A DNA stretch of 64,000 nucleotides from assembly GCF_002259595.1 (NCBI RefSeq), contig NZ_MWWU01000002.1:310001-374000 (forward strand), written 5' to 3'. The stretch comes from Aeriscardovia aeriphila (GTDB lineage Bacteria > Actinomycetota > Actinomycetes > Actinomycetales > Bifidobacteriaceae). The notes under the pieces were generated by a model. That model saw only the letters and a program-made list of their open reading frames with translations. It ran no database searches and was not told the origin of the DNA. The translations under genes and the position numbers were made by a program. Position 1 is the first letter of the stretch. Every line of letters starts with the position of its first letter. This document shows, in pieces, positions 1,847 through 16,299 of this stretch.

Positions 1847-2661
1847 AGGAGAGTGGGGATGAGCACGCTCCACGTCCACAACAGGTGAGGAAGAAGGCGG
1901 AGTTGTCGAGCTCCGCCTTCTTTGCGTTGCGGCTCCTTTTCCTCACGCTGATGGCTAATAAGTGCGTGCACTGATGTAGCGAACCATAGCAAACACCACA
2001 GCAACAGGGCGTCAGTTACTGGCCAGAGCAGTGTCAGAGTTTGTGCGCTCAGCGCTGCTGCCCAGACGTCAGCAAGGCCAAAACCGCTCTGAGGTGGCAG
2101 GTGGGGTGGCAGCTGACGAGATAACTCAGTTGGTGACGCAGCTTGAGTTTGAGCTGAATCGCTCGCCGTGACTCGAGCTGAAATCTTCGACTGTACTCCT
2201 GTACGCGCGTTGTGAATTGCAGCCGAGTCTTGACGTTTTCCTGCGATTTTCGTGAGCCGATGGCACAGGAAGCCCAGAGCGCATATACTTACTCCCACAC
2301 TCAGCGCAGTGACAATCTGGGTGAAAAGCTGGGTGACCATCGGGGTGGAAGCCTGGAGAGGTGAAGGCGCCGATGACGTGAGGCTTGAGGAGTCGAGGCC
2401 TGGCCGCGCAGAAGCCGAAGACTCGAGGCTCAGCCACTTGAGTCCAGAACCGTTAAGTTCCAACCAGTCGAAACCTCTCCAACCAACAAACCAAGCCCCA
2501 GTAACAACCGCCACGCTAGCCGCAAATTGGCAGGTAGCCGTGCGCAGGAAAGTTCGGCGGCGCACCAAGCCGCAGTGATAATCTTGGCGAGCAGCAGAGA
2601 GTAACGCCATGCTCGCGCTGACCACGAAAATGATGCGAAGAATAAGAGTGAGAGTTGTCAT
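1828..2661 (-). CDS. Polytopic membrane protein, possibly a degenerate prepilin-peptidase-like protein
   Basis: 277 aa with about five hydrophobic stretches: the N-terminal 18 residues, about 44-66, 108-135, 200-232, and the C-terminus. The stretch FGLADVWAAALSAQ followed by LLWP loosely resembles the GxGDVK...ALG...GWP region of A24 (TadV/GspO) prepilin peptidases, and the N-terminal D...LVRRR could match their first Asp region. However, that Asp falls in a stretch encoded by a copy of the dispersed octamer (2576-2583), so the match is weak. Residues 75-105 and 140-185 are Ser/Ala/Gln-rich linkers. The gene diverges from pyrG and converges on mltG, and its tail overlaps the mltG terminator. 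The function is inference only. Confidence 0.5.
   Translation of the reverse strand: MTTLTLILRIIFVVSASMALLSAARQDYHCGLVRRRTFLRTATCQFAASVAVVTGAWFVGWRGFDWLELNGSGLKWLSLESSASARPGLDSSSLTSSAPSPLQASTPMVTQLFTQIVTALSVGVSICALGFLCHRLTKIAGKRQDSAAIHNARTGVQSKISARVTASDSAQTQAASPTELSRQLPPHLPPQSGFGLADVWAAALSAQTLTLLWPVTDALLLWCLLWFATSVHALISHQREEKEPQRKEGGARQLRLLPHLLWTWSVLIPTLLLIHPP
1893..1924 (+). terminator. Rho-independent terminator of mltG
   Basis: GAAGGCGGAG (1893-1902) pairs with CTCCGCCTTC (1911-1920) across an 8-base loop, then TTTG. It lies within the C-terminal codons of the minus-strand ORF, so terminator and coding sequence overlap. Confidence 0.6.
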
Positions 2662-2801
2662 GAGGCCATCGTGACAGAGCAGACAAGAGCGAACAGGAAT
2701 TTTTCTGCAGTGTGGATAACTTGAGCAAAATCGGCGTGTTGGGCTCGTATGAAGCCAATCTCTCTGAGAGGTGAAATATGAGCGGCTCGAGTCGTGTCTG
2801 A

Positions 2802-4541
<1,740 letters not shown>

Positions 4542-13383: not shown

Positions 13384-14271
13384 CTAACTATTGACCAGCA
13401 AGCCTTGTGCCGCGCGGATCGCGTAGAAAGCCACCGCAGAACTTGCCGCAACATTGAGCGAATCAACATGGTGAGCCATCGGAATTTTCACCGTGTAATC
13501 AGCAGCGCGCAAAGTACGAGGCATGAGGCCCTCGCCTTCTGTACCAAAGATCAGCGCAACCTTACCGATATGCTCAGGAGCGTCTTTGGGCAGAGCACAA
13601 CGGCGGGCGAGCTCAGGAAGGGACAGAGAGTCGTCGCGCAAAGCCATCGCAACAGTAGTAAAACCAAGGTCTTTGAGCTCTTGAATCGATGGGTTTGGCC
13701 ACTGGTGGTAATCATCACCGCCAATGCGAGTCCACGGAACCTGAAAAACAGTGCCCATCGAAACGCGCACCGAACGGCGATAGAGGGGATCAGCGCAAGA
13801 AGGCGTGACCAGAACGGCATCCACGTTGAGAGCCGCGGCCGAGCGGACAATAGCGCCAATATTTTCGTGGTTGACCACATTCTCCAGCACTGCCACCAAG
13901 CTTGCCCCCTTGCACACCTCAGAAACGGAGGGGAGAGACCAGCGCTTCATAGCGGCCAGAGCGCCACGATGCAAGCGAAAACCAGTCAACTGAGTGAGAA
14001 GCTCCTCAGAAGCGACGAAAACGGGAACATCAGGGCCCCACGTGCGATCGACGAAATCAAACTCCTCCTGCATCTGGGCCAACCAGCGCTCTTCCAACAA
14101 GAAGCTCAACGGCTCAACATGGGCGGCGAGAGCGCGGTCAATCACCTTGGGCTGTTCGGCGATGAACAGGCCTTTGGCGGGCTCCAGGCGATTTCTTAAT
14201 TGCAGTTCAGTAAGATTAGTGTATGCCTGAACTTGAGGGTTATTCAGATCGGTAATAGGGATGATTTTCAC
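13384..14271 (-). CDS. SpoU/TrmH-family RNA 2'-O-methyltransferase
   Basis: 295 aa, SPOUT superfamily. The three SpoU motifs are visible: NHENIGAIVRSAAAL (motif 1, SAM/RNA-binding Asn and Arg), VALIFGTEGEGL (motif 2) and IPMAHHVDSLNVAASSAVAFYA (motif 3, forming the knot). The N-terminal 110 residues form a substrate-binding domain like that of 23S rRNA methyltransferases (LRNRLEPAKGLFIAEQPKVIDRAL). It probably methylates ribose in rRNA or tRNA; the exact site cannot be read from sequence. It is divergent from the next gene, with only 45 bases between the starts. Confidence 0.9.
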   Translation of the reverse strand: MKIIPITDLNNPQVQAYTNLTELQLRNRLEPAKGLFIAEQPKVIDRALAAHVEPLSFLLEERWLAQMQEEFDFVDRTWGPDVPVFVASEELLTQLTGFRLHRGALAAMKRWSLPSVSEVCKGASLVAVLENVVNHENIGAIVRSAAALNVDAVLVTPSCADPLYRRSVRVSMGTVFQVPWTRIGGDDYHQWPNPSIQELKDLGFTTVAMALRDDSLSLPELARRCALPKDAPEHIGKVALIFGTEGEGLMPRTLRAADYTVKIPMAHHVDSLNVAASSAVAFYAIRAAQGLLVNS

Positions 14272-14316
14272 CCTTGCAGTCTAGCAAGCAGTCAAGAGCC
14301 AGAGGGGGAGGCGGGT

Positions 14317-15831
14317 ATGGGCTTGCGAACGCCGAAGCAAGGCTCGAAGCGATACCGATACCTCCATGCTGCGCGCCTTCGTAAGCCGCGCGAACTCGTC
14401 AAATACCAGCATTGCCCAGCAACCGGGAAAGTCTGCTATGCGACTCAAGATGAAGCAATTCTCGTTCTGGGCAAGACGCAGTGGTCGAAGGATAGGGAGA
14501 AGCGCCACGAGAAGCGAGTCTATCAATGCCCCAACTGTCATCAGTGGCATCTCACTTCCGTTTCCCAGCTGAGCTACAAGCGGTATCTGCATCCGCGGGA
14601 GAAGGCGAAAGTTCTGCTGAGCCGGTGGAAGAACCTTGAGCGCTTCGGTGGCCACCGTCCGAAAGCTCTCGACGTGTACGTCGAAAGAATAGATGGGTAT
14701 TGGACGTACTCGATTGCTGAACTCGATGTGCGAGGCAAGGCTGAGACTGCTGCGAAGGCACGAGAATATACGCGTAAAGTGTTCCCTCATGACCTTCTTG
14801 AGGTTGGCCTCGAGTTTCATTACCTGCATGAAAAGTACTCTGACATCGAGTACGTTTATCAGCGCATGTGCGAGCAGAGATATGGAGTGATTTCTCAGCG
14901 TGCTTGGCGTGAGTGGATGAACAAGTTTGGCCTTGAGCCGGAGGAGGTTTTTGTGGTGCCGGAAGCCGCGGTGAAAGCTGGAGCTGCGGTGAAAGCGGAA
15001 CCGGAAGCTGCGCCGGAAACAGAAGCTGCGCCGGAAACAGTCGAAAAGGTACTGCCGGATGAGGTGGAAGCAGCACAGGAAGTCGCGCCGGAAGCAACAC
15101 AGGAAGCCGAGGAAAGAGAACCATCTGCCCCGCGCACTGCCCCGCGCTCTTCCTTCAAATTTCTGACGAAGAAAGTGGACTACCGCAAGCTCAGCCTTGC
15201 TCAAACCCAGTTCATGTACTTAGAGCCGCTGCTGGCTCAGATTCGCTCGGTGTTTTTCCGCCGTGGTTTCCGCTTCCGCAAGTATGACCCGCGCTACAAA
15301 TTCCTGCCTTCGATAGTCTTTCCCAAGTATCGCACTATGATTGTGGTGAAGCCTTGCTTGTGGCATGAGGATGAGAAGTGCGAGCGCCTTCCGCAGCTTT
15401 TCCCGCGTGCCCTCGAGCGATTCCGCGATGCTCATCTCGATGAGTGGATGGATATGATTGATGCGTATGAAGAGTTGCGCGCTCAGGGCTGGGATGTGCT
15501 CGAATGCTTCGAGTGTGAGCTCGACGGTCGCGTCGATGAGTTTGTGGATCAGACTGCTGCTCGCATGGTGCTGGTGAAGATGAAGCATGCTGGTGAGAAG
15601 CAGCTTTCTGACCAGTTCCTCGAGCGCTGGCAGGCGTATGCGAAGGAGCACGATTCTGCTGATCTTGTCCCCACTCTTGCTCGCCAATACAAAGAGATTT
15701 TCACTGAGTCTTTCTTCGCCGACGGCCCTGTGCACCTTCCTCGTCGTGAGCTTGCTCAGTGGCTCTACTGGTGTGTCACCTCCCAGCGACCGCGAGGGGA
15801 GTACCCGCTTCTTTCTCGTTGGAGAAGCTAG
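14317..15831 (+). CDS. Zinc-ribbon protein with an inactivated Vsr-endonuclease-like domain
   Basis: 504 aa; the ATG at 14317 has a strong GGGGGAGG RBS. Residues 30-81 form a zinc ribbon (C33, C40, C71, C74, H78) ending in HQWHLTS, the style of small phage or plasmid zinc proteins. Residues about 220-285 are an Ala/Glu/Pro repeat linker. Residues about 290-410 follow the very-short-patch (Vsr) endonuclease: RGFRFRKYD, then LPSIVFPKYRTMIVV, CLWHEDEKC, and QGWDVLECFECELDGR (compare GW.VL..WEC.L). The catalytic Asp of the P-D-x-V motif is Ser332, and the His of HGCFWH is Lys345; the cysteines C347 and C355 that match the Vsr zinc site and H350 remain. So the fold is kept but nuclease activity is unlikely. 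About 90 unassigned residues follow. Confidence 0.7.
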   Translation: MGLRTPKQGSKRYRYLHAARLRKPRELVKYQHCPATGKVCYATQDEAILVLGKTQWSKDREKRHEKRVYQCPNCHQWHLTSVSQLSYKRYLHPREKAKVLLSRWKNLERFGGHRPKALDVYVERIDGYWTYSIAELDVRGKAETAAKAREYTRKVFPHDLLEVGLEFHYLHEKYSDIEYVYQRMCEQRYGVISQRAWREWMNKFGLEPEEVFVVPEAAVKAGAAVKAEPEAAPETEAAPETVEKVLPDEVEAAQEVAPEATQEAEEREPSAPRTAPRSSFKFLTKKVDYRKLSLAQTQFMYLEPLLAQIRSVFFRRGFRFRKYDPRYKFLPSIVFPKYRTMIVVKPCLWHEDEKCERLPQLFPRALERFRDAHLDEWMDMIDAYEELRAQGWDVLECFECELDGRVDEFVDQTAARMVLVKMKHAGEKQLSDQFLERWQAYAKEHDSADLVPTLARQYKEIFTESFFADGPVHLPRRELAQWLYWCVTSQRPRGEYPLLSRWRS

Positions 15832-16206: not shown

Positions 16207-16211
16207 ATGAG

Positions 16212-16299
16212 TGTCCGGAGCGGGAGTTGAACCCGCACGGCCGTATAAAGTGGCCACTAGCACCTCAAGCTAGCGCGTCTACCATTCCGCCACCCGGAC
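16212..16299 (-). tRNA. tRNA-Leu (anticodon GAG)
   Basis: 88 nt on the minus strand. The acceptor stem is GTCCGGG/TCCGGAC with a G-T closing pair and discriminator A. The D-arm region is TGGCGGAATGGTAGACGCG. The anticodon stem is CTAGC/GCTAG with loop TTGAGGT, so the anticodon is GAG, reading CUC/CUU. There is a long class II variable arm (TGGCCACTTTATACGGCCG) and a T-arm with GGTTCAACTCC. CCA is not encoded. The terminator follows immediately. Confidence 0.96.

Follow-up and report, generated by a model that had tools for sequence, protein, structure and literature searches.

Why should a bacterium keep intact a 504-aa protein containing the fold of a very-short-patch repair (Vsr) endonuclease whose catalytic aspartate has been replaced? 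The question is raised by a forward-strand gene (14317..15831) in the window analysed here, a 64,000-nt stretch of DNA from a genome (1.63 Mb, 84% complete) of Aeriscardovia, a gut-type member of the Bifidobacteriaceae related to Bifidobacterium. Its frame runs from an ATG at 14317 to a stop codon at 15829-15831, exactly as given in a preliminary description made from the sequence alone. A Shine-Dalgarno-like GAGGGGGAGG can be read upstream of the ATG (14302-14311, forward strand), and the N-terminus, MGLRTPKQ, is conserved among relatives as MG(L/I)(R/K)TPKQ. In order, the protein consists of a zinc ribbon, a tentatively HicB-like domain, an Ala/Glu/Pro linker, a pseudo-Vsr domain and a domain resembling the putative immunity proteins of phage MuF loci; the preliminary description had recognized the ribbon, the linker and the Vsr fold, and had missed the other two parts.

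The proposal of a Vsr fold, for which structure prediction had been suggested as a check, is supported by profiles, alignment and structure for residues ~300-402 (15214..15522, forward strand). Pfam PF03852 (Vsr) matches residues 308-353 with E=2.6e-8, above its gathering score; TIGR00632 matches residues 307-401 with E=1.1e-8, yet scores 35.4 bits where its cutoff is 97.85. A profile of the protein's own family finds E. coli Vsr (1CW0) with E=4e-13, and PADLOC returns the Vsr model as its sole significant match. The AlphaFold model of the whole protein (mean pLDDT 64) is confident in three places only, namely the ribbon, a portion of the middle domain, and the Vsr domain, where the pLDDT reaches about 90-95 over most of residues 301-410; Foldseek places 1VSR and 1CW0 in the first two ranks for this model (probability 1.00, E about 1e-3). 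The likeness to Vsr extends to the order of motifs, to a zinc core of CxWHx4C and WEC type, and to an equivalent of H69. There are also differences: D51 is replaced by Ser and D97 by Met, M14 and F67 are lost, G65 has become Pro, there are extra N- and C-terminal domains, and no tie to a C5-methylase is seen.

How far has the domain been disarmed? The mismatch is contacted in E. coli Vsr by M14, F67 and W68. The active site of that enzyme is given as E25, D51, H64, H69 and D97 (PMC12907096). Residues at these positions were compared between 34 genuine Vsrs of Bifidobacteriaceae and their relatives and ten members of the family, with a reference sequence identical to 1CW0. M14, E25, D51, F67, W68, H69 and D97 are present in all 34 genuine Vsrs; D97, M14 and F67 are present in none of the family members, F67 being replaced by Leu. 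D51 divides the family: it is found in all eight Bifidobacterium-type members (the name being assigned to genera g7 and g13 by family and content, not by label) and in neither Aeriscardovia member, both of which have Ser. Retained throughout are C66, W68, H69 and C73 (10/10), as is C117 in the nine members whose sequence reaches that position.

In the 504-aa protein, the equivalent of the catalytic Asp51 is Ser332 (codon 15310..15312, forward strand) and that of Asp97 is Met380. The zinc and active-site motif C347-L-W-H350-x4-C355 lies at 15355..15381 (forward strand), with L348 in place of F67, so that W68 alone survives from the mismatch-contact set. C347, C355 and C400 correspond to the zinc ligands C66, C73 and C117, and H350 to H69; the fourth ligand, H71, has become Asp352. 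The alignment thus bears out the residues named in the preliminary description (S332, K345, C347, H350, C355), together with the loss of the catalytic Asp. Two of the interpretations placed on them are not supported. Lys345 had been taken for a lost catalytic His, but 32 of the 34 genuine Vsrs have Asn at the H64 position, so this residue has no diagnostic value for lost catalysis. Nor does the Asp-to-Ser change appear to be the defining event: in the eight Bifidobacterium-type homologues the Asp is present, yet D97, M14 and F67 have gone. The pattern points instead to stepwise disarming, with Ser332 as the last step. A survey of homologues for this change had been proposed: Ser332 is common to two Aeriscardovia genomes, which rules out a simple strain mutation, though it does rest on two sequences, the gene being present in two of four Aeriscardovia genomes.

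Catalytic residues can move within PD-(D/E)XK nucleases, and this lends support to the main rival explanation, that the protein is a still-active nuclease with a rearranged site in which metal is bound by E303, displaced by one turn of the helix, together with H350 and further residues invariant in the family. The position of E25 is occupied by Leu306 in an ungapped alignment; if a three-residue insertion in the helix is allowed, it is occupied by Glu303, which is invariant in the family. D51 and H69 are also kept in the Bifidobacterium members, so these, with E25 perhaps retained as E303, could still cut. Set against this are the loss of D97 in all ten members and of the mismatch contacts M14 and F67, and the replacement of D51 in both Aeriscardovia by an uncharged Ser with no conserved acidic substitute nearby. 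A rearranged active site is accordingly more plausible for the Bifidobacterium members than for Aeriscardovia, and as an account of the 504-aa protein it is rather unlikely. From the same losses we infer that the Aeriscardovia protein has lost cleavage; with its Cys/His core kept, the pseudo-Vsr domain should still fold around zinc.

Another possibility, raised in the preliminary description, is that the protein acts as a regulator of, or a sensor for, methylated or mismatched DNA, retaining the T:G/5mC-related recognition of Vsr. Its Vsr ancestry and the conserved W68 are in keeping with this; the loss of M14 and the change of F67 to Leu in every member, affecting the residues that intercalate at the mismatch, are not. 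The genomic record also speaks against it: a C5-cytosine methylase is absent from five of the nine genomes that carry the family, four of them 99% complete, leaving a role linked to methylation unsupported. A search for methylase genes near homologues had been recommended, and in the window none of this kind adjoins the gene and no C5-methylase occurs within the 64 kb; the genome's one C5-methylase is on another contig. As a positive control, a genuine Vsr and a C5-methylase lie about 4 kb apart in Bifidobacterium-type genome G085, whose family gene is on another contig. Of the seven Bifidobacterium genomes with the family gene, five have a genuine Vsr as well, so the family does not serve as its replacement. 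Among the four Aeriscardovia genomes the 504-aa type of gene, where present, is the sole Vsr-type match, although the two carriers are about 84% complete and the absence of other genes from them is weak evidence. A role in methylation or very-short-patch repair was rejected on the missing C5-methylases together with the lost contact residues, and methylation or mismatch sensing in any form is very improbable.

Is the gene maintained at all? Family members with the order zinc ribbon, middle domain, Vsr form one clade (SH-aLRT 100), found sporadically in 9 of 189 Bifidobacteriaceae genomes; the sole relative among named genomes is in the Aeriscardovia aeriphila assembly CASERW010000001.1. The 504-aa gene lies between a divergent SpoU-type rRNA methyltransferase gene (13384..14271, reverse strand) and tRNA-Leu(gag) (16211..16299, reverse strand), in a core region whose other genes include permease, HIT, PhoH and YbeY-like ones. 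A third Aeriscardovia genome, G001, has no copy; between its SpoU and tRNA-Leu(gag) genes is a glutamine-amidotransferase-like ORF (contig L091, 6601-7287), marking a variable spot beside the tRNA, so the 504-aa gene occupies the site in only part of Aeriscardovia. No att-like duplication was seen around the gene, the repeats there being mainly those of its own linker. An origin as a prophage gene was considered and rejected, there being no phage or plasmid record with useful similarity; two IMG/VR contigs do contain relatives, at the contig edge and adjoining an integrase or tRNA-Pro. Bifidobacterium family members on contigs L067 (6718-8139), L118 (592-1757), L031 (9320-10833) and L068 (5348-7695) lie 0.1-1.5 kb from tRNA-Pro(ggg), a frequent site of prophage integration. 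A DUF1304-like membrane-protein ORF, recognized by eye, is near the family gene on L065, L066 and L068.

The gene could on this account be a decaying, functionless passenger of phage integration sites, as its sporadic distribution, the proximity of several copies to tRNA-Pro or an integrase, and frameshifts or a stop in three Bifidobacterium copies (L031, L068, L069) might suggest. Those broken copies point to ongoing local loss of the family. Between the two Aeriscardovia genes, however, there are 33 nonsynonymous and 55 synonymous differences, giving a dN/dS of 0.151 (0.17 for the Vsr part), and the frame is open in both genomes; such purifying selection argues that the gene is maintained there and not decaying, in agreement with the original impression that it had been kept intact. 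In the same pair of genomes, adjoining genes have dN/dS of 0.06-0.08, and YbeY has no nonsynonymous change at all. Intact copies are present in five other genomes, and decay is an improbable explanation.

What, then, do the flanking domains contribute? The HLTS-type zinc ribbon described at the N-terminus is confirmed at residues 28-95 (14398..14601, forward strand; C33, C71, C74 and H78, also C40) by a match to phrog_3424 with E=2.6e-8, a profile matched by all seven family members tested. It is basic (pI 10.3) and shares its C-x37-CxxC-x3-H pattern, ending in HLTS, with small stand-alone proteins of phages and Bifidobacteriaceae; in the latter these proteins or ORFs are ~94-135 aa long, whereas in Aeriscardovia the ribbon forms the N-terminus of a larger, 504-aa protein. 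The linker said to join it to the Vsr domain is real (residues ~216-284, 14962..15168, forward strand): it is acidic, is modeled with low confidence and is absent from the Bifidobacterium homologues, and residues 205-285 are 56% Ala, Glu and Pro with a pI of 4.3. The join is not direct, however, as a domain of about 60 residues intervenes (residues ~115-170; 14662..14826, forward strand).

This middle domain is tentatively assigned a HicB-like fold. The AlphaFold secondary structure has the beta-beta-beta-alpha-beta order of HicB-like antitoxins, Foldseek gives weak matches to the HicB-like 2yzt and 3k6q, and a structure search pairs the domain, again weakly, with a Mycobacterium phage Nibb antitoxin that is itself HicB-like (probability 1.00, target TM 0.67); a model of the domain by itself has a pLDDT of 44. 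Sequence and profile searches found no HicB match, so the assignment, being structural, stays provisional, and no HicA partner was seen. Its profile occurs in the same nine of 189 Bifidobacteriaceae genomes, always in one gene with the Vsr-like domain, and has no match in any other of the 297 genomes sampled from the order or the 397 from the phylum.

The C-terminus had been described as about 90 further residues. The extra stretch is there, and residues 424-504 (15586..15828, forward strand) form a recognizable domain, homologous to a small ORF that directly follows phage MuF-zincin genes. The homology is found in both directions (a stand-alone query from genome G035 retrieves the window protein at E=1.6e-8); the stand-alone forms are about 71-110 aa long and ~40-45% identical to the domain. 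They adjoin genes for head morphogenesis (weak phrog_4728 matches, with an HExxH zincin-like motif) and head scaffolding (phrog_9857), and the order in phage-derived loci is MuF, small ORF, scaffold. On IMG/VR phage contig L122 (IMGVR_UViG_3300006154_000290), a MuF-type protein (2385-3896) has HETAHMLD in its C-terminal part and the homologue of residues 424-504 (3893-4144) follows directly, overlapping the MuF gene by 4 nt. The arrangement of a MuF-type head protein with HETAHMLD and then a small ORF is seen at L122 2385-4144, L111 2367-3675 and L071 6762-8076. The small ORF family is undescribed, with no Pfam or PHROG match, and AlphaFold, working almost without relatives (the viral ORF of L122 was misplaced in the MAFFT alignment), modeled the C-terminal domain poorly.

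Among the MuF polymorphic toxins of temperate phages, 89.4% of the genes have a small ORF after them, interpreted as an immunity gene, and 20% of the putative toxins have a metallopeptidase domain (Jamet et al., PMC5576092). By this parallel in gene position, the MuF-zincin gene and small ORF of bifidobacterial phages and prophages are a candidate toxin-immunity pair, the small protein having the immunity role, and residues 424-504 are most simply read as a captured, putative immunity-type domain. Unlike the MuF systems, the domain in Aeriscardovia is fused to a chromosomal pseudo-Vsr, and no toxin gene adjoins it: its neighbors are the permease, SpoU methylase, tRNA-Leu, HIT and PhoH genes. 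On contig L092 (from G123; about 1500-2588) a genuine Vsr gene stands immediately ahead of one encoding a C-terminal-domain protein, and an adjacency of this kind could have been the source of the Aeriscardovia fusion.

Might the main role of the protein be chromosomally encoded immunity to the MuF-zincin toxins of phages, with the pseudo-Vsr and ribbon as mere carriers? The 4-nt overlap of the homologous ORF with its MuF-zincin gene, and the head-morphogenesis and scaffold neighbors of the stand-alone copies, speak for this. The Bifidobacterium family members, however, have no C-terminal domain, and the identity to stand-alone forms is modest, their own immunity function being itself putative; a mainly protective role is rather unlikely.

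The explanation preferred here, judged to have an even chance of being right, is that this is a Bifidobacteriaceae-specific pseudo-Vsr acting as a non-catalytic, zinc-stabilized binding scaffold, which in Aeriscardovia has been fused to a MuF-immunity-like domain and possibly serves in phage defense. A genuine Vsr nuclease domain would have been joined behind a zinc ribbon and HicB-like domain in a small family confined to Bifidobacteriaceae. The whole family would first have lost the active-site Asp97 and the mismatch-inserting M14 and F67; Aeriscardovia would then have lost the metal-binding Asp51; there the pseudo-nuclease also has the acidic linker in front of it and the MuF-cassette-type domain behind it. 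The basic zinc-ribbon end and pseudo-Vsr scaffold may bind nucleic acid, and the C-terminal domain may bind another protein, which by analogy would be a MuF-type toxin on its way into the cell or the capsid protein of that toxin; the whole would act as a chromosomal binding or immunity protein. There is a precedent for reuse of the fold: FASTKD4 has a Vsr-like fold without nuclease activity and acts on RNA (PMC11879112). The likeness to the FASTK family (RAP domain) is one of fold and of function through binding in place of cleavage; these proteins are mitochondrial and have unrelated accessory domains. In a bolder version, distinctly unlikely as it stands, the dead mismatch-repair nuclease is a nucleic-acid platform with a captured MuF immunity domain, neutralizing phage-particle toxins at the place of phage DNA entry or binding, and would represent a novel class of anti-phage or anti-toxin protein encoded on the chromosome.

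For the Bifidobacteriaceae, the locus appears to be a case of a bacterial Vsr fold reused after the loss of its active site, with relatives that reveal the order of the losses, and it brings this pseudo-nuclease together with a domain known from the MuF toxin cassettes of phages. Should the immunity role prove real, the gene would illustrate the capture by a host of the antidote that a phage itself encodes. An old nuclease has apparently been put to a new use, which may be to deal with phages.
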